64,000 nucleotides of DNA from Veronia nyctiphanis (GTDB lineage: Bacteria; Pseudomonadota; Gammaproteobacteria; Enterobacterales; Vibrionaceae): the NCBI RefSeq assembly GCF_004116385.1, contig NZ_PEIB01000006.1, forward strand, positions 1 through 64,000, given 5' to 3'. The translations under genes were made by a program, and so were the position numbers. Shown in pieces: positions 519 through 11,911 of the stretch (positions are counted from its first letter, which is position 1; every line of letters begins with the position of its first letter). Below the pieces are notes generated by a model. The model searched no databases and was not told where the DNA came from. It saw only the letters and a list, made by a program, of their open reading frames with translations.

Positions 519-719
519 ATGAAACAAGTCATTACTATGGAAGAAGCAAAAGAAGTGAACGGTGGTACTGGTGGTCTTGGTGGTATTCTCGGCGGTATCA
601 TTGATATTGTTCTGACTATTGTTGACGCTATTCCAAGCGCAACTCTAGGCGACGTTGCGAAATCTTTATTTACACTTGTTGCCAACGTTGTTAAAGGCCT
701 ATTTGGCGGTAACAAATAA
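519..719 (+). CDS. double-glycine leader peptide, putative class II microcin/bacteriocin precursor
   Basis: This encodes a 66-residue precursor. Residues 1-16 (MKQVITMEEAKEVNGG) form a leader of the double-glycine type: counting back from the cleavage site there are Gly-1, Gly-2, Val-4, Glu-8 and Ile-12, matching the pattern cut by C39 peptidases. The predicted mature peptide is 50 residues, has no cysteine, begins with closely spaced glycine pairs (GG-L-GG-IL-GG, a glycine-zipper-like stretch), continues into a hydrophobic region with few charges, and ends GLFGGNK. A Shine-Dalgarno GGAG lies nine bases before the ATG. The next gene is an exporter with a C39 domain, which strongly supports secretion after leader removal. 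Antibacterial activity is inferred. A signalling peptide is the main alternative. No modifying enzymes such as lanthionine synthetases are nearby, so an unmodified peptide is likely. Confidence 0.8.
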   Translation: MKQVITMEEAKEVNGGTGGLGGILGGIIDIVLTIVDAIPSATLGDVAKSLFTLVANVVKGLFGGNK

Positions 720-740
720 TTAACAATTAATAGTGAAAAA

Positions 741-771
741 ACGCATCTCCTTTGTCATAAGGGAGATGCGT
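741..771. terminator. stem-loop between peptide gene and exporter gene
   Basis: An inverted repeat (ACGCATCTCC ... GGAGATGCGT, extended by further pairs including a U-G) sits 21 bases after the peptide stop codon. On the + strand it is followed by TAAAAATAAA rather than a run of T, so it is not a classical intrinsic terminator in that direction. It could protect the 3' end of the peptide mRNA or cause partial termination, giving more peptide than exporter. On the - strand the A-run at 735-740 would act as a U-tract. Confidence 0.5.
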
Positions 772-904
772 AAAAATAAAATAATATAATAAGTCAGCGT
801 TTGACTGACAATAAATGTTGGAAGCTGGACGCTTTCAACTTGCTGAATTACTGACACTACATCCTGTAGCGATTCAGATAGCATTTTCAGGGAGCCTTAT
901 ACAT

Positions 905-3079
905 ATGAGTTCTGCCCCGCTTAAGGTCATCCTTCAAAGCGAAGTCACCGAGTGTGGAAATGCTTGTTTGGCTATGGTTGCCAGCAAATTTGGTGTCGAA
1001 CTGACTCTCCCTCAACTTCGTAAACTCAACCCAGCTGAAATCGGCGCGGGTGTGAACCTCAAAGATATCTCAGAAGTCGCCTTGATGGCTGGCTTCCACT
1101 GTAGCCCAGTAAAATTCGACAACGATAAACCGGAAGAACTTGAACTTCCCTGTATTGTCCATTGGGGTGGGAACCATTTCGTTGTTCTTGAGTCAGTCAG
1201 TAATGATCAACTGAAGGTCATTGATCCTGCCCTTGGTCGCCGAATATATAAGAGAGACTACTTCGCAGAGATGGTGACAGGTTATGCATTAGAACTGACG
1301 CCAAACTTCGACAAAAAGCCTGACTTAAGTAACCTTCTGTCTGATAGCGGCAGAGGTATTGTTACTTTTAAGGCATTACAGCGTGTGATGCCTGGCTTTA
1401 GAAACAACCTACTGCTTGTCCTACTGATGAGTTTTACTGTTGTTTTTATTTCTATGCTATCTCCACTTTATGTTCAGAAAGTGGTTGACGAGGCAATATC
1501 GAAAGGCAATTTAGATCTCCTCTATGTTCTCTCTGTCGTCTTTGCCGCTATATTTCTCCATGAAGTCGTCTTTAGTTATGTAGCAGAAATAACAAAGGTC
1601 AGTTTAAGAAACCGGCTTAAAGAAAAGCTGACAACCAGTATCTTCGCGAAACTTATTTATTTACCTATTGATTACTTTAATCGAAGAACAACGGGTGATT
1701 CACTCTCGCGGATAGGCTCCGCAGAGGGCATTACACATTACATGGTAGATGGCGTTATTGTCATTGTGACATCGACAGTGATGATCGCTCTTTCCATCTC
1801 TGTCATGTTGTACTTCAATGTGCTTCTCTCTGTCTTATCCGTGCTGGTCATGCTTGTTTTCGCCCTTTCAAAGTATTTGTTCAAGCGCTCTGTTATTCAT
1901 GTTGAAAAACAGCTGATTAATGACAGGGTGAAATCTGACTCATTAGCTATTGATATCATTAAATCGATCAAGACGATTAAGTCGTATTCGTCAGAGTTTA
2001 GGAAAAATAATACTTGGTCGAGCTTCTTCTCTTCTTACATTGCTCAGGATATTAAAAAGGCCAAAATTGATATTCACATTGGCATTCTGAGTAAGCTCTT
2101 TCTGTACTCAGAACTTTTATTGATAGTCACGCTCGGTGGTTACTTAGTGATCAAAGGTGATATGACTGTCGGAACCATGTTTGCCTTCATTCTCTATAAA
2201 AATATTTTTACCGAGGAGGTCATTAAGCTGGTAGAAATGCTGATCGTTAAACAGTCGATAGAAGTTCACTTAGAGCGTGTTAATGACATTATTGATCACG
2301 AATCTGAAGTGGAAGACCTTGCTCGAAATGAGAAAACGATTGAGCGACAGGTGACATTTCCAGTATCGAAAGCGATTAATCTTGCCGACGGGGTAAGTGT
2401 TAATGTCAACCAACTTGATTATCAGCCCGCTGGTGCGCCACATAAAATCCTTAAGAATGTAAACCTAAAAATAGATAAAGGTGAAAAGGTTTGTATTATC
2501 GGTAAAACGGGTTCGGGTAAAACCACGTTGACCAGTATTATCTCAGGGTTATTCCGTCAGAGCACGGGTACGGTTGAGCTTGAGAAGGTCGACACGCTTT
2601 CACTCAACCCAGTTGCCCACAGGGCGTTGACTTCAACACTGTCTCAGGATGATGAGATTTTTGCCGGGAGCATTGAGGAAAACATCACCTTAAGTCCTTA
2701 TGACATTGATTACGACTATCTGGACTATGTGTGCAAGCTGAGCCTGATAGACAAAGATATCGAAAAGATGACTGTGGGATATAAAACGCTGTTATCTGAT
2801 AACTCAGGCTTTCTCTCTGCGGGTCAGAAGCAACGCTTGCTCATTGCAAGGGCGCTGTATCAAAAACCAAGGCTCCTTATTCTGGATGAATTCACCTCTA
2901 ACCTTGACGAAAGGACCTCAAAGCGTTTGGTGGATAACATTATTAAACATGTTAAATGCACCTTGATTGTTATCTCTCACGATACGTCAATCATGACACG
3001 TTTTGACTCTGCTTATCTGGTAAGTAATGGTCGGTTGAGGAAACTTCGTCATCGAGAGGTCAATCATGTCAGTGATTGA
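905..3079 (+). CDS. peptidase-containing ABC transporter (C39 peptidase / bacteriocin exporter)
   Basis: This is a 724-residue inner-membrane exporter that should cut the double-glycine leader and pump out the mature peptide. The N-terminal C39 peptidase domain (about residues 8-130) has a complete catalytic set: Gln11, Cys17 (TECGNACLAM), His91 (WGGNHFVV) and Asp107 (IDPALG). Hydrophobic membrane segments follow over about residues 160-450. The ATPase domain has Walker A GKTGSGKTT near 535, signature LSAGQKQR near 636, Walker B LLILDE near 660 and an H-loop VISHD. I chose the ATG at 905 because AGGGAG lies just upstream and homologues begin a few residues before the Gln/Cys motif. An in-frame ATG at 815 would add 30 residues. 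The 3' end overlaps the next gene by 14 bases. It resembles CvaB and the PCAT family. Confidence 0.93.
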   Translation: MSSAPLKVILQSEVTECGNACLAMVASKFGVELTLPQLRKLNPAEIGAGVNLKDISEVALMAGFHCSPVKFDNDKPEELELPCIVHWGGNHFVVLESVSNDQLKVIDPALGRRIYKRDYFAEMVTGYALELTPNFDKKPDLSNLLSDSGRGIVTFKALQRVMPGFRNNLLLVLLMSFTVVFISMLSPLYVQKVVDEAISKGNLDLLYVLSVVFAAIFLHEVVFSYVAEITKVSLRNRLKEKLTTSIFAKLIYLPIDYFNRRTTGDSLSRIGSAEGITHYMVDGVIVIVTSTVMIALSISVMLYFNVLLSVLSVLVMLVFALSKYLFKRSVIHVEKQLINDRVKSDSLAIDIIKSIKTIKSYSSEFRKNNTWSSFFSSYIAQDIKKAKIDIHIGILSKLFLYSELLLIVTLGGYLVIKGDMTVGTMFAFILYKNIFTEEVIKLVEMLIVKQSIEVHLERVNDIIDHESEVEDLARNEKTIERQVTFPVSKAINLADGVSVNVNQLDYQPAGAPHKILKNVNLKIDKGEKVCIIGKTGSGKTTLTSIISGLFRQSTGTVELEKVDTLSLNPVAHRALTSTLSQDDEIFAGSIEENITLSPYDIDYDYLDYVCKLSLIDKDIEKMTVGYKTLLSDNSGFLSAGQKQRLLIARALYQKPRLLILDEFTSNLDERTSKRLVDNIIKHVKCTLIVISHDTSIMTRFDSAYLVSNGRLRKLRHREVNHVSD

Positions 3080-5245
3080 TCCGCAGCGTGGCAAAATCAG
3101 TCTAAAGACTCGCTTTCTTGTGAGGCTTTTTTCTTTTCTGCCTTACCGTTTGTTGAGCTGGTTCATTGCCCCGTTGTCAGGTTCTCGTTTAAGTCTATCG
3201 ATAATCAACTCATTGCGGATAACATTCAGGCTTACATGCCTGATATGAAAAGCCGGTCAAAACAATACGTTCGCCGCATAAAGCGTGACTACTTGATGAG
3301 TGCATTCAGCCAGTACCTGTTGTCTAAAGCTTTTTTTAGTCGTATTGCCAAGGTATTCAACTCTTCATCTGAACAGACACTGTTACTCAGCCATCAAGGC
3401 AAACTAAATCTATTTGTCATTCACCCTTTCGGTTGCTATTTCACCACAGCACTGTTGCTGATTCGTAGCCTTAGACAAAGAGATATGCCAATTTACTTGG
3501 TTGTCGATGACAAGCTGAAAGGTTACATGACCATCGAGCGCCTCCAGAGTATCTGTGACACTCTGACTGAAGAGGGGCGAGTGACGGTTTATAAGGCGTC
3601 AGAAATTCAGTTCGATCAGGCATTTTTGTCAGACATGGAGCGTCAAGCGATTAACGTCATCATGCCAACCACCATTTCAGCTGGCATGCAGGATTTTGCC
3701 TCCGTGAAGTTTTTATCAAAGACGATTCAGCTATCCGCCTGTTTAAGCACAGTCATTACGCATCAAAGAGATTGTGCGGTGTATACGATTGATACGCCGA
3801 TAAATATATTTAACCTTTCCAGTCATTCATTGACATTACGCGCGCTGTCGATAAGAGACAGTGAAGCGGAAGACTCTGGACGTATTGCCAGACAATGGTT
3901 AACGCGTGTTGTGAACGATATGCAGCAACAAGTCTTGGAAAGAACGGATCAATGGCTGGAGTGGATCTTGGCAGAAAAGTTCTATGGACGGCCTGATCCA
4001 GCCAGTATGGGGGTAGAAATGAAAGAGAACTTTGGCAGTTTTGTTTCGGGTCGTGTGGAGGTTCCAGCAGGCTTAAGAATGCTTTGCTATGGTCTTCTGT
4101 CATTTTTTGTCACCGCACTTATCATGATGGGAACAGTGAAATACTCTCCCAGTGATGCTGCACCGGGTTATTTACTTGCGACTGATGAAACCGCCGTGGT
4201 GAAGAGTGAGTACACGGGACAGGTAATTTCTGTGGATGTGGAAGAGGGCAGTGTTGTCGGTAAAGACCAACTTCTCTACCGAATTAAAGTGAATAACCAG
4301 TCTGTTAGCTCTTCAACCTTGGGTGATAGCTTGATAGGCCAGTTACAGAAAGATATGACTGCTTTAAATCAGCGAATAAAAACCCTGAAAGAAGAGCATG
4401 TTGTTAGCGTCAGAACGATAAAAAAAGAGATAAACAGCAAAATAGATCAACTGCGTACTCTCGACGGCTTGATGGCTCAGCAACAATCCACGCTGGAGCT
4501 GCTACGAAATCACAATGAGCGGATTAAATCGCTCTACCGCAAGGATCTTACATCTCGCACTGTGTTAGAGCAGGAAAAACTCAAGCTCCTTAATGCTGAA
4601 AAAGAAATGACAAACTATCGGTTCAGGAAGAAAGGCCTGAGTACCGAGATTGACCGTCTGAGTAGTGAGATTAAGCGCAGAGATATCAACCTCAGGCTCA
4701 ATGTCGAAGCTGAAGCGTTGAAGATCTCATCAGTAGAGAAGCAGTTACTTGAGTTGAGTGAGGATCGTGTAGTCAGCATTTATGCCAATAAATCGGGTGT
4801 GGTAAATAATCTCAAAGTCGCTAGCGGCGATACGATCATTGTCGATGGGCGCGAGATCATGGAGATCACCCCATCAGCAACGGAGAAAATCACCAATGCT
4901 GTGGTGTTTATCCCGACAGGGAAATTAGTCGATATTGATGTGGGTAAACCGCTTCGCGTCGTGGTTGATGCGTTTCCTGTTTCCGAGTATGGCAGTTTTA
5001 CCGGAAGGATTACCCGACTGTCTAGCTCGACCTTTAAGCATACTGACTTCGTTGTTGAGCTGCCCCGAGGCTCTCTCTACTACAAAGCGGACGTTGAAAT
5101 TTATGCAGGAGAAGGTGGATCAACGAATAATATGGACTCATTTAAACCGGGGATGCTGATCACTGCTGATATCTTGGGAGACAAAACTACACTCTTTGAG
5201 TGGCTGTTTGAGCCCTTTATCAAGGCGTTTAGACGCGTATTCTAA
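3066..5245 (+). CDS. HlyD-family membrane fusion protein with N-terminal LpxL/HtrB-like acyltransferase domain (frame break)
   Basis: The frame opened by the ATG at 3066 (RFLVRLFSFLPYRLLSWFI) stops at 3248. The continuing frame is already coding before its first ATG at 3236, so one base is missing between about 3170 and 3195. Restored, the protein is about 726 residues. Residues 1 to about 310 look like a lipid A acyltransferase-type domain: an N-terminal hydrophobic segment, a VIHPFGCYF segment where the family has HFGNWE, a VKFLSKTIQLSA segment and a terminal WLEW. The catalytic acidic residue of the HX4(D/E) motif appears to be absent. A membrane segment (LLSFFVTALIMMG) and a HlyD/CvaA-type periplasmic adaptor with lipoyl-like halves around a coiled coil follow. 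The gene is coupled to the exporter by a 14-base overlap. Its expected role is to bridge the exporter to TolC. The acyltransferase-like part is unusual and its function is unknown. Confidence 0.82.
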
Positions 5246-5253
5246 ATAAAAAA

Positions 5254-5276
5254 AACGCCCTGCTTAGCAGGGCGTT
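5254..5276. terminator. bidirectional intrinsic terminator
   Basis: A perfect 10-base stem (AACGCCCTGC / GCAGGGCGTT) with a three-base loop, flanked by an A-run on the left and a T-run on the right. It lies between the convergent membrane fusion protein gene and the hexose-phosphate mutase gene and should end transcription from both sides. Confidence 0.9.
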
Positions 5277-5308
5277 TTCGTTATGTCTGCTGTTAGCATC
5301 CTCAGCGA

Positions 5309-6720
5309 CTACAGTTCTAAAAACTGCTTGAGATCGCCGACCATTGCTTCTGCTGTCTCTTTGTCTTCCCACTCTACGAAGATACGCAGAAGAGGTTCGG
5401 TACCAGAGAAACGCAGCAGTGCCCAGCCACCACTCTTGAAATAGACCTTAAGACCATCGGCATAGCTGACTTTTTCAATATCATGCTTGAAGTCAGGCAG
5501 TGCTTTTTCAACATAAATCTTGTTGTAAAGCGCTTCGCGCTGAGACGGCTTGAATGTACAGTCACCTTCTGCTGTATAGGCATAGCCATATTTGCTATAG
5601 ATTTCATCAAGCAGTTCTGACAATTTTTTGCCCGTGACACTGATCATCTCAACAAGAAGCTCGATGCAAATACGCCATCTTTGCCTTTAATGTGACCACG
5701 GATGGTCAGGCCACCTGAGCTTTCACCGCCTATCAGAGAGTCATCCGCTTCCATTTGTGAACTGATGTGTTTAAAGCCAACAGGGACTTCAAAACACTTC
5801 TCGTCATGGTCAGCTGCGACTTTGTCCAGCAGATGCGTGGTTGCAATGTTGCGGACAACCGAGCCTTTCCAGCCTTTGTATTCCAGAAGGTAGTAGTAAA
5901 GTAGTAACAAGACTTCATTTGGATGAATGAAGTTACCTTTTTCATCGATGATACCAAGACGGTCAGCATCGCCATCGGTGCCGATACCGATGTCGTAACC
6001 TTCATGGGCAACAAGGTGCTTCAGGCGATAAAGTGTTGCGGCATTTGGTGATGGCATTAAGCCGCCAAACGAAGGGTTTTGACCATCGTTAATCACATCA
6101 ACGTCGCAGCGTCCGTTGATTAACACGGTTTGCAGGGCGTTTTTCGCTACACCGAACATTGGGTCAATCAGTACACGTAGATTCGCCGCTTTTATCGCTT
6201 CAATGTCGATAAAATCGATAACCGCATCAACGAACTCATTCATTGGGTTGATGATTTGTACACTGCCGTTCGCAACTGCCTCTTCGAAATCGACAGACTT
6301 AATGTCGCTTTGCTGAAGCGTCGTTACCTGCTCTTCGATTTTCGCGGTGATCACCTCGTCAGCGTCGCGGCCGCCTTCGATAAACACTTTAATGCCGTTG
6401 TAGTCTGCCGGGTTGTGTGATGCCGTGATACACGCAGAGTAGTGGGTTTTCATCTCGCGGGCTTTGAACATCACTATAGGCGTTGGGACAAACTTGTCGA
6501 TGAAGCTTACCGTAATGCCATTTGCTGCCAGTACTTCTGAGAACCATTTTGCCGCTTTATCTGACAGGAAACGTCTGTCGAAACCAATAACGAAACCCGG
6601 TTCTACCGCATTCTCGTTGACCATGATGTTCGCCAGCCCTTGTGCCGCCAGACGAACATTGCCACGGGTAAATTCTTCACCAATCAGGGCGCGCCAGCCG
6701 CCGGTACCAAACTTGATCAT
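5309..6720 (-). CDS. phosphomannomutase/phosphoglucomutase-family protein of the chitin locus (frame break)
   Basis: This is a cytoplasmic alpha-D-phosphohexomutase of about 470 residues. Visible motifs are the N-terminal KFGTGGWRA, the active-site phosphoserine loop TASHNP, the metal-binding loop DGDADRLG, the sugar-binding GGESSGG and a C-terminal phosphate-binding RFSGTEPLLR. The frame starting at 6720 ends at 5644 and the C-terminal part continues in another frame from about 5660. Adding one base near 5654-5661 restores SSLLVEMISVTGKKL. As last gene of the chitin operon, directly after chitobiose phosphorylase, it probably converts the GlcNAc-1-phosphate released by that enzyme to GlcNAc-6-phosphate. 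The same gene order (VC0611-VC0612) is known in V. cholerae. The exact substrate is inferred from context. Confidence 0.88.
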
Positions 6721-9349: not shown

Positions 9350-10215
9350 TCAATATAAGTTGTGATGTCCTCTGGCCATCAGCAATGCACCGTCCATGGC
9401 ATCGCCAGCAGGCTTCACCAGTAGAGATGCAGCTGCAGGCATCAACCAAGGCACAATGCGTTCACCGATACTGCCCATTAGCGCGACTTTGCTGGCCCCT
9501 TTGCGGTGAAGGCCGATAATAAGGCGCTCAATGTCATCAGCAGTGGCTTTTAGCATCTCAATGGCCAATGGGTCGCGCTGCTCAGCAAAGGCAAAAATCG
9601 CGGGGCTGAACTGACCGTAATCTCTTGGCTTCGCTGTTTTTGACCAGTCGACAATGGCATCAATATCGTTATCAAAGTGATCGAGAACATGGCCCACCAG
9701 AGCGCTTACTGGACGGAGGCCGTCATTGGCAAGCAGTGTTTGCTGAATCAGGCGCAAACCCATGACGCGCCGCCACCTTGGTCGGAAATGGGGAATTCGC
9801 GGCCACCGATAACAGTTTGTTTTCCCTGATGCGTCATGACGCCGACAGAGCCGGTACCTGCAATCACGATGGCACCGTCATCACCCGAAAACGCGCCCAT
9901 ACACGCACCGTAACCGTCAGTGTTCAGGGTCATATGTGCATAGGGGTGGGGAAGTGCCATGAAGGCGTGCCACGCATTTTTTTGCTCTGCGCCAGCTAAT
10001 GCCAGTCCAACAGAGATGTCAGGCATATCGACAATCCCTGCTTGCTGCGCGGCTTCACCGATGGCGGTTTGCAGAGAGTCCATGGCAAGCTCAACACCCA
10101 GCAGGATATTAGCGCTTCCGGTTTTTGCTTCGCCAAGAAGGTTGCCTGCTGCGTCGGTAATGCGTGCTCGACAAGATGTGCCGCCACCGTCGACACCACA
10201 AAAATACTTACTCAT
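9350..10215 (-). CDS. gspK: glucosamine kinase GspK (frame break)
   Basis: This is an ATP-dependent kinase of the BadF/BadG/BcrA/BcrD ATPase family (about 288 residues restored) that phosphorylates free glucosamine to glucosamine-6-phosphate. The start MSKYFCGVDGGGTSCRARI carries the glycine-rich phosphate-binding loop. A second nucleotide-binding segment (VIAGTGSVG) and SDQGGGA follow. The ATG at 10215 overlaps the end of the GH9 gene by eight bases (ATGAGTAA), so the two are translationally coupled. The reading frame breaks near 9763-9770, directly after SDQGGGA, and adding one base joins it to GLRLIQQTLLANDG. Pairing with an exo-glucosaminidase makes sense, because that enzyme releases the glucosamine this kinase uses. 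Confidence 0.9.
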
Positions 10216-11911
10216 CCTGCAGATCCTTGCTTTGTGCGGCGATCGCCAGCAGGAACCATGCAGCATGAGGGATCCATTGTTCGCCCCAGCGCCAGTTTTG
10301 CAGCATGTCGTCTTTTTGCGGATCTGGATTAAATGCAATGCCCTTAGGATCGTCGAAACCTGCTGTGATCCCGTTACAGATACCACCATAAGCATTGAAG
10401 AAGCCAAGATCTGGCAGGTAGTCCGGGTTGTTACGGCCATATCCATCGAGCATGCACATGTCGTAAGGGTTCAGACCGAGCACCCAGTCGATTGCGTTCT
10501 GACCGTATTTTTTTAGCTCAGATGTTAAAGAGGTATCGAGCGATACATCACTGGCCATGAACGCCATCGCGGCGAGTGAACCCAGGCGTGCATTCTCGCC
10601 CTGCCACCAGTAACCGGTTTCGTTATCCTGAGCCACGAAGAAGCTGCTGCGCTTATCTCCAGATACTGGCTTAGTGTATTGGCGAGGGTAACCGAAGGGG
10701 TTACTGACTTCTGAGGTAATAGACAGCTCAAATTGCAGAGCCTGCCCCAGTACCTGCTGATATTTTTCCGTTAACGCAGCATCATGTTCAATAGCCAGAT
10801 ATTGCATCAGCGCAATAGCGGGCAAGCCTGCTTCGGCGGCATGGAAATAAGGCCTGCTGCCGTTTTCTGTCGCAGACCAGAAGTGTTGCCATTGCTCGTC
10901 ATTTTGTTGGTACTGAGAGAGAACATCCGCCCAACGGCGTGCTTCTGTCAGATACTCGTCTGAGCCTGTTGTCCGGAACAGCTCAACCGCTGCGAGCAAC
11001 GCGCAATAAGCGTCAATCAGGTTTTCCTGTCCGTTATCCAGATACGCATTGTTGTGTTCAATCAGGTGCCAGTATCCGCGTTCAGCCGTAATGAGATATT
11101 GTTGACTCGGAAACTCGCCCTGTGTTTTTTGTCGTGCAGCTGCAGCAAGCGCTGCAATGCTAACGCCTGCACCTTGTCTGAACCCGGCCTCAAACGCATC
11201 GGTCTTGTGGCCATCTTGCGTTTCGTACGCACAAATCTCACGCTGAGCAGTATCTTTGCTCCACTTGTCGAAGACGGTGAGGTAGAAGAAACCCGCAGGG
11301 TCTTGCATACGTACGAGGAAATCTGCACCGAAAAGGGCTTCATCAACAAGACGTGATTTCACGAACGGTGCAAGTTGTGAGTCAGCCAACTCCAGTGCTT
11401 TTAGCATGTTCCACACTACCATTGGGGTTTGCTGTGGATTCATATAGTTGGCGTAGGAGAGGTGGCTCAGGTATTTACTGACATCGCCTGATGCGTCATA
11501 CCAGCCACCGTGCACATCGGCGTAGCGTTCTGTACCGACAAGAGAAGCCTGACTATCGGCATCATCAAAGTCGCCGCTGCAGCGCTGTGATTTGAAGTAG
11601 TGAATGATGTCAGAGAAAGTACGTTGAATCAGGAAATCAGACTTGATGTCAAAACGTTCTGAGGTCACATCGCCAGCACGTACTTGATACGTACCTGCTT
11701 TTGTCAGTGAGGAGAAATCAGCGAGATAGACGTCACCAATTTGCCAGTTATCAACATTGCCTGATGGTGTCAGAGGTACATCCATCACGGTCTCGCCTGT
11801 CTGGCTGTCGAGGACCTGAACGACAGTAACCGGGCACGAAGCCCGGGTCACGATGAGTGCTTTTTTGCTGCTTTGGCAATCGTAGCCAAGATGGTTGAGT
11901 AACAACTGCAT
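10208..11911 (-). CDS. GH9 exo-beta-D-glucosaminidase / chitosan-oligosaccharide hydrolase
   Basis: This is a 567-residue glycoside hydrolase of family 9 with an N-terminal Ig-like domain (about residues 1-90) and an (alpha/alpha)6 barrel. No signal peptide is visible, so it should act in the cytoplasm on imported sugars. The catalytic aspartates in HGGWYDASGD fall at residues 139 and 143, the numbers I recall for the Photobacterium profundum GH9 glucosaminidase. The likely general acid is the Glu near 544 in WRWGEQW. Family knowledge from Vibrionaceae says these enzymes release glucosamine from (GlcN)2. A beta-glucosidase activity was also reported for the V. cholerae relative. It sits between the transporter ATPases and gspK and overlaps gspK by eight bases. 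Confidence 0.88.
   Translation of the reverse strand: MQLLLNHLGYDCQSSKKALIVTRASCPVTVVQVLDSQTGETVMDVPLTPSGNVDNWQIGDVYLADFSSLTKAGTYQVRAGDVTSERFDIKSDFLIQRTFSDIIHYFKSQRCSGDFDDADSQASLVGTERYADVHGGWYDASGDVSKYLSHLSYANYMNPQQTPMVVWNMLKALELADSQLAPFVKSRLVDEALFGADFLVRMQDPAGFFYLTVFDKWSKDTAQREICAYETQDGHKTDAFEAGFRQGAGVSIAALAAAARQKTQGEFPSQQYLITAERGYWHLIEHNNAYLDNGQENLIDAYCALLAAVELFRTTGSDEYLTEARRWADVLSQYQQNDEQWQHFWSATENGSRPYFHAAEAGLPAIALMQYLAIEHDAALTEKYQQVLGQALQFELSITSEVSNPFGYPRQYTKPVSGDKRSSFFVAQDNETGYWWQGENARLGSLAAMAFMASDVSLDTSLTSELKKYGQNAIDWVLGLNPYDMCMLDGYGRNNPDYLPDLGFFNAYGGICNGITAGFDDPKGIAFNPDPQKDDMLQNWRWGEQWIPHAAWFLLAIAAQSKDLQDE

Follow-up and report, generated by a model that had tools for sequence, protein, structure and literature searches.

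Contig C84 of the 5.29 Mb Veronia nyctiphanis genome encodes, on the forward strand of its first 64 kb--the whole stretch of 64,000 nucleotides analyzed here, termed the window--a cassette that, as judged from its sequence, is microcin-like in anatomy and is set apart from known microcin export systems by its adaptor. The cassette consists of genes for a double-glycine peptide, a C39 exporter and an HlyD-type adaptor, which adjoin one another in this order. Comparison between genomes indicates that this arrangement is real and goes beyond chance, because the gene order and a near-identical leader recur in Veronia pacifica and because related peptides adjoin related exporters elsewhere in both Veronia genomes. 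The cassette is very probably a dedicated secretion system. More specifically, and with moderate confidence, it is interpreted as a type I secretion cassette resembling those of class II microcins, the peptide core of which would act on the membranes of competitors and the adaptor of which would include a precursor-handling domain. Nearly all known class II microcins come from enterobacteria. In a published survey, only 2.8% of Vibrionaceae representatives had hits (PMC9746304). The present case concerns one genus with several related cassettes, with divergent peptides and with an adaptor design that is absent elsewhere in the sampled genomes; no description of this system was found among the titles and opening lines of abstracts of open-licence literature on microcin export, HlyD/LPLAT proteins and Veronia.

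The precursor peptide, its exporter and the orthologous locus

The precursor gene (519..719, forward strand) is an open reading frame of 66 residues, for which the division proposed in the first-pass annotation holds: a 16-residue leader ending in GG (MKQVITMEEAKEVNGG) is followed by a 50-residue core, which contains no cysteine, has a calculated mass of 4866.7 Da, is hydrophobic (GRAVY 1.05) and is near neutral in charge (-0.6). Double-glycine leaders end in GG or GA, according to the rule given in PMC9746304; the window peptide has GG at this position and its V. pacifica orthologue (L033:417-617) has GA. In an ungapped comparison the two peptides are identical at 13 of 16 leader residues but at only 7 of 50 core residues, and a gapped alignment gives 40% identity over the whole peptide. 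By these alignments, the core has diverged much further than have the leader, the exporter or the adaptor. The earlier description of the core as cysteine-free, hydrophobic and glycine-zipper-like is retained for its first two properties, whereas its glycine-zipper character is poorly supported, since GxxxG does not occur in the V. pacifica core.

The exporter gene (905..3079, forward strand) was delineated by Pfam models (Peptidase_C39, ABC_membrane and ABC_tran all match) and by homology to V. pacifica; an alternative start lies upstream at 815, and 905 is preferred because the V. pacifica homology begins there. Its top NCBIfam match is TIGR03796 (NHLP bacteriocin exporters), yet the score of 387 bits is below the curated cut-off of 853, and the Veronia precursor leader has only 16 residues, as opposed to the long nitrile-hydratase-like leader of NHLP systems. 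Numbered from the 815 start, the catalytic set comprises C47, H121 and D137, spaced by 74 and 16 residues, with a Q in an LQSE stretch ahead of C47; both the residues and the spacing are as in CvaB, whose catalytic residues are Cys32, His105 and Asp121 (PMC9746304), so that the catalytic set is complete, as was first claimed, in an exporter that ends at 3079. Outside the genus, exporter relatives share at most 34% identity among the matches listed; at 1e-60, 59 of 296 family genomes were matched, 57 of them from other genera.

A survey of the locus in related genomes, which the first-pass annotation had recommended as a check, identified V. pacifica as the closest relative among the searched genomes, with an orthologous cassette in matching gene order (77% identity for the exporter, 57-58% for the adaptor, and 13/16 leader residues). 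The models, the catalytic residues and this V. pacifica locus together support what had been claimed at the outset, namely a C39 cassette dedicated to the secretion of a hydrophobic double-glycine peptide that lacks cysteine. A scan of genome contigs for wider relatives returned only the two V. pacifica loci, viral contigs contained no relatives of the adaptor, and a plasmid search gave no match either to the adaptor's extra domain (see below) or to the peptide. The contigs start only 518 bases (V. nyctiphanis) and 416 bases (V. pacifica) upstream of the peptide gene. Positions 1-500 of the window have no second copy in this genome, so that the contig break is not bridgeable in this way, and there are no tandem repeats at the start of the V. 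pacifica contig. By eye, the nearest neighbors of the window cassette resemble genes of sugar-phosphate mutase and chitin-sugar type.

In the gap that separates the peptide gene from the exporter gene, the transcript can form a strong hairpin (741..771, forward strand; -20.6 kcal/mol, z -5.6) that has no T run after it on this strand; in V. pacifica the corresponding gap also contains a strong hairpin, of another sequence, which leads into a U tract. The window hairpin likely protects or attenuates the transcript, and hairpins at this place would yield more peptide than exporter message. Just past the adaptor stop, an inverted repeat with a T run (5252..5278, forward strand; read from the sequence by eye) is likely the cassette terminator and would suit the convergent gene on the opposite strand as well. 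A promoter scan found no more sites than expected by chance (6 versus a mean of 4.6).

The adaptor gene and its extra N-terminal domain

The adaptor of V. pacifica is encoded by one intact open reading frame of 729 residues. By alignment to it, the window adaptor is one gene split over two frames, which starts at 3066 rather than at 3236 and which is broken somewhere around 3131-3190. The first frame (3066..3248, forward strand; 60 residues) overlaps the exporter stop and aligns with the start of the V. pacifica adaptor, and is thus likely the true N-terminus; in addition, the stretch 3054-3176 matches positions 3-43 of a model of the extra domain. In the second frame, homology to the V. pacifica adaptor already starts at 3131-3134 and runs to 5242. 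The open reading frame there (3236..5245, forward strand), the larger part of the gene, encodes the rest of the extra domain (to about 4080), then a hydrophobic, membrane stretch recognized by inspection (approximately 4082-4141) and, from about 4142 on, the HlyD-type periplasmic part recognized by HlyD models. HlyD_3 is matched over its cut-off, and type_I_hlyD (TIGR01843) scores 115 bits against a cut-off of 209. A membrane fusion protein, as had been reported, is encoded here, and its gene overlaps the exporter end; the frame at 3236 to which it had been assigned, on the other hand, is only the larger part of the gene.

If the frame break were real, then the cassette would be decaying and the system would be dead in this strain. 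This is improbable, even though the adaptor is not the only damaged gene of its kind: in the C95 region of the same genome (described below), the first exporter of a related pair is spread across three or more frames and one peptide frame ends soon after the leader. Against decay stands the condition of other genes. Two genes that are single in V. pacifica, the convergent gene beside the cassette (5312-6624, within 5309-6720) and one on C95 that is dehydrogenase-like, are likewise split here, at 90-96% identity to their V. pacifica counterparts. Given this pattern, a sequencing or assembly error is the simplest, and the likely, reading of the adaptor break as well. Elsewhere in the window, at 9350-10446, another gene that is single in V. 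pacifica occupies two frames according to the open reading frame lists, which again points to indel errors in this assembly; of these two split window genes, the one beside the cassette was compared by tblastn.

The first-pass annotation had treated the adaptor as an ordinary one, which it is not: it carries about 300 extra N-terminal residues, the HlyD part starting about 300 residues into the frame at 3236, and the intact V. pacifica adaptor is 315 residues longer than the ordinary, 414-residue HlyD adaptor of the C48 cluster (see below). Because of this unusual domain, the accompanying statement that the cassette encodes no modification enzyme may not hold. The domain reached no cut-off in Pfam (5 sequences) or NCBIfam (4 sequences), where its best matches are transposase models (E 0.055 and 0.0058, respectively). 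Its family has five members--three in this genome and two in V. pacifica--all of which share the H, F, G and C of an H-x-F-G-C motif (H63 to C67 of the frame at 3236; 3422..3436, forward strand) that was located in the family alignment. At E 0.001, the two Veronia genomes were the only ones of 296 from the family to match the extra-domain profile, and samples of 369 genomes from the class and 398 from the phylum gave matches in its own genome alone; these sets are overlapping samples that amount to less than a full survey. PDB sequences gave no match to the profile up to E 10.

Comparison of the extra domain with LPLAT proteins

The extra domain has, somewhat more probably than otherwise, an LPLAT-like (LpxL/PatA-like) fold. 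When its profile was compared with 221 open reading frames and their reversals, an LpxL protein was the best match outside its own family, at E 0.0043, in an alignment that begins in the N-terminal hydrophobic segment and extends as far as the active-site His of LpxL; a further match (L093_1, E 1.8e-10) was assigned to the family's own C95 gene by position alone. The set of LpxL-type frames used for comparison comprised 29 matches from 13 genomes, among which one of 552 residues was excluded from the alignment and two of equal length from overlapping loci are probably one gene. In the reverse search, the LpxL profile failed to lift the family above decoys, its best member coming only 45th with E 7. 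A first profile-profile comparison with LpxL gave a local E of 0.057, and a forced global mode aligned only 5 columns; with gappy columns trimmed, hhalign scored 22.2 (E 0.04), a score that 8 of the 301 altered alignments, 300 of them shuffled and 1 reversed, also attained. With the threshold off, the alignment is colinear over 282 columns and extends to a C-terminal PDKW opposite the PEQY of LpxL. LpxL came third out of 11 clusters of real proteins, outscored by the family itself and by one unrelated cluster; after removal of the first 62 columns it ranked fifth, with a score of 16.8 that is not significant and is below those of 3 unrelated clusters.

The idea is weakened by the behavior of weak matches more generally, inasmuch as these fall mostly on the N-terminal segment: a scan of 148 genomes of the order at E 5 gave 23 matches outside the domain's own genome, 16 of which lie within the first 107 model positions. 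Eleven of these 16 sit in unrelated-looking open frames of 903-1093 residues, the N-terminus of which reads like that of a sensor kinase, and one of the 23 loci (L105) contained LpxL-type frames. Two AlphaFold models of the domain, built from 3 input rows only, attained pLDDT values of 37.7 and 40.5, so that structure comparisons based upon such poor models constitute weak evidence. In the second model (pLDDT 40.5) a strand directly precedes the His and is followed by alternating helices and strands, an order that resembles that of LPLAT proteins. A Foldseek search with this model placed a plastid GPAT at rank 3 and PatA at ranks 6, 8, 11, 13, 18 and 25, i.e., 7 of the first 25 rows, in a search that as a whole had no match at E 0.001; the top 50 of VIA-align included no LPLAT chain in either comparison.

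The acidic partners expected of an active acyltransferase appear to be absent. In PatA the His works together with a block 3 acid, E200, and HtrB and MsbB seem to use a His and a block 3 acid in the same way, as described in PMC4792965. In the extra domain no block 3 acid was seen by eye, on an alignment that is itself uncertain, and the HX4D/E pattern is lacking in that all five members have Y, F or L, and not D or E, five positions beyond the His. With both acids apparently missing, canonical acyltransferase chemistry is unlikely. What the domain shares with LpxL, LpxM and PatA (PF03279, LPLAT) is therefore a weak colinear similarity, an N-terminal hydrophobic segment and a His at the expected place; it differs from them in the apparent lack of acid partners, in an invariant Cys four residues after the His, in its fusion to HlyD, and in having no match to PF03279 (5 sequences searched with an E limit of 10, although the filters drop most matches above about 0.1).

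Whether the domain serves in precursor handling rather than in catalysis is evenly balanced in our judgment. It would lie on the cytoplasmic face of the membrane beside the C39 domain, held there by the adaptor's first hydrophobic stretch, and would most likely capture the sticky, hydrophobic precursor and hand it over by means of a lipid-binding, LPLAT-like fold. A quite improbable alternative is that it is a diverged acyltransferase in which the invariant Cys replaces the His-acid relay and forms an acyl thioester, from which either the peptide or a lipid that protects the producer would be acylated. Were this so, lipidation would coincide with the release of the core by the C39 exporter, a modifying enzyme would reside inside a secretion adaptor, and the lack of an immunity gene (discussed below) would be explained too. 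More generally, a domain that binds or modifies the substrate would illustrate how very hydrophobic peptides are handled prior to export or, alternatively, a new route to lipidated bacteriocins.

Related peptides and the role of the exported core

Under the preferred interpretation as a microcin-like cassette with a precursor-handling adaptor, the precursor would be cleaved behind GG16 by the exporter at the inner membrane; its 50-residue core, which is hydrophobic and probably helical, would then pass through the exporter, the adaptor and a TolC-family channel to act on the membranes of competing bacteria. The cassette itself contains no TolC gene, in agreement with the first reading of the locus; TolC-family genes occur elsewhere in the genome (8 matches, 3 of them over the curated cut-off). 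In these respects--double-glycine precursor, C39-ABC exporter, HlyD-type adaptor and TolC outside of the cassette--the system corresponds to the CvaA/CvaB type of colicin V (MccV), from which it differs in the roughly 300 extra residues of its adaptor, in a peptide that exceeds no searched cut-off, and in having no recognizable immunity gene. The last of these had also been noted previously and agrees with inspection of the open reading frames, which covered only 518 bases upstream of the peptide gene in the window and 416 in V. pacifica. An antibacterial role for the peptide is only slightly favored, and pore formation, which the first-pass annotation suggested, is a putative activity.

Further cassettes of the same family occur in both genomes. 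In V. nyctiphanis, two tandem exporter-adaptor pairs lie on the minus strand at positions 7127-18116 of L029 (G000:C95:85000-104500), in a region with six candidate double-glycine peptides, of which one is cut short soon after its leader and one is doubtful by score; in V. pacifica, C64 encodes one exporter-adaptor pair and two peptides. A profile of eight peptides, applied at E 1, gave 8 matches in this genome, 4 in V. pacifica and 0 in 5 further genomes; by their scores, the two weakest matches (E 0.26 and 0.49) are doubtful. Of the eight peptides, two weakly match TIGR03949, a model of class IIb bacteriocins (best E 0.076), one matches Bacteriocin_IIc (E 0.4), one matches PSM-delta, and two match an unrelated transporter model, the best of these at E 0.019. 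The best values for the set are E 0.019 (NCBIfam) and E 0.099 (Pfam), and the models concerned are not microcin models. Against the PDB, up to E 10, the peptide profile retrieved 5 sequences, none convincing, the best being a talin fragment at E 0.4.

These relatives bear upon a rather unlikely alternative to an antibacterial role, namely the export of a surface-active, matrix or amyloid-like component involved in biofilm formation or spreading, like phenol-soluble modulins or the small double-glycine proteins of Synechococcus; small GG-motif proteins of cyanobacteria do take part in biofilm formation, as reported in PMC4997328. Such a role would accord with the hydrophobic, near neutral core (-0.6) and with the missing immunity gene. 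It would accord, too, with one C95/C64 peptide pair, the cores of which are identical at 53 of 60 positions, unlike those of a fast-diverging toxin, and the leaders at 8 of 15; because this pair keeps its core better than its leader, fast core change is not general among these peptides. The window peptide, on the contrary, combines a fast-diverging core with a conserved leader, as is usual for bacteriocins. It matched no Pfam or NCBIfam model over the cut-off, and PSM-delta, which is among its weak matches (E 0.058 and 0.099, both below the cut-off), is matched over 15 residues and without significance.

Two orphan peptides, both on the minus strand and with leaders of the type described here, were also found: L096:5463-5669 in V. 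pacifica (E 3.5e-4) and L097:5652-5858 in V. nyctiphanis (E 0.26). Inspection of the 11-12 kb around them revealed no C39 exporter. The former sits 450 bases beyond a kinase-like gene, which reads like one for a hybrid histidine kinase and which could be construed as pointing to a pheromone-like signal exported by the C39 system. That the window peptide is such a signal is, nevertheless, quite improbable: inspection revealed no sensor gene next to the window cassette and no kinase-like frame of at least 100 residues beside the other orphan, and a very hydrophobic core of 50 residues is unusual for a pheromone.

A separate contig of V. nyctiphanis, C48 (L094/L095), encodes the ordinary C39 exporter and 414-residue HlyD adaptor referred to above, together with three double-glycine peptides at L095:6475-6936. 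Its first and last 13,330 bases are identical, and it may, by virtue of this overlap, correspond to a circular replicon of 60,819 bp.
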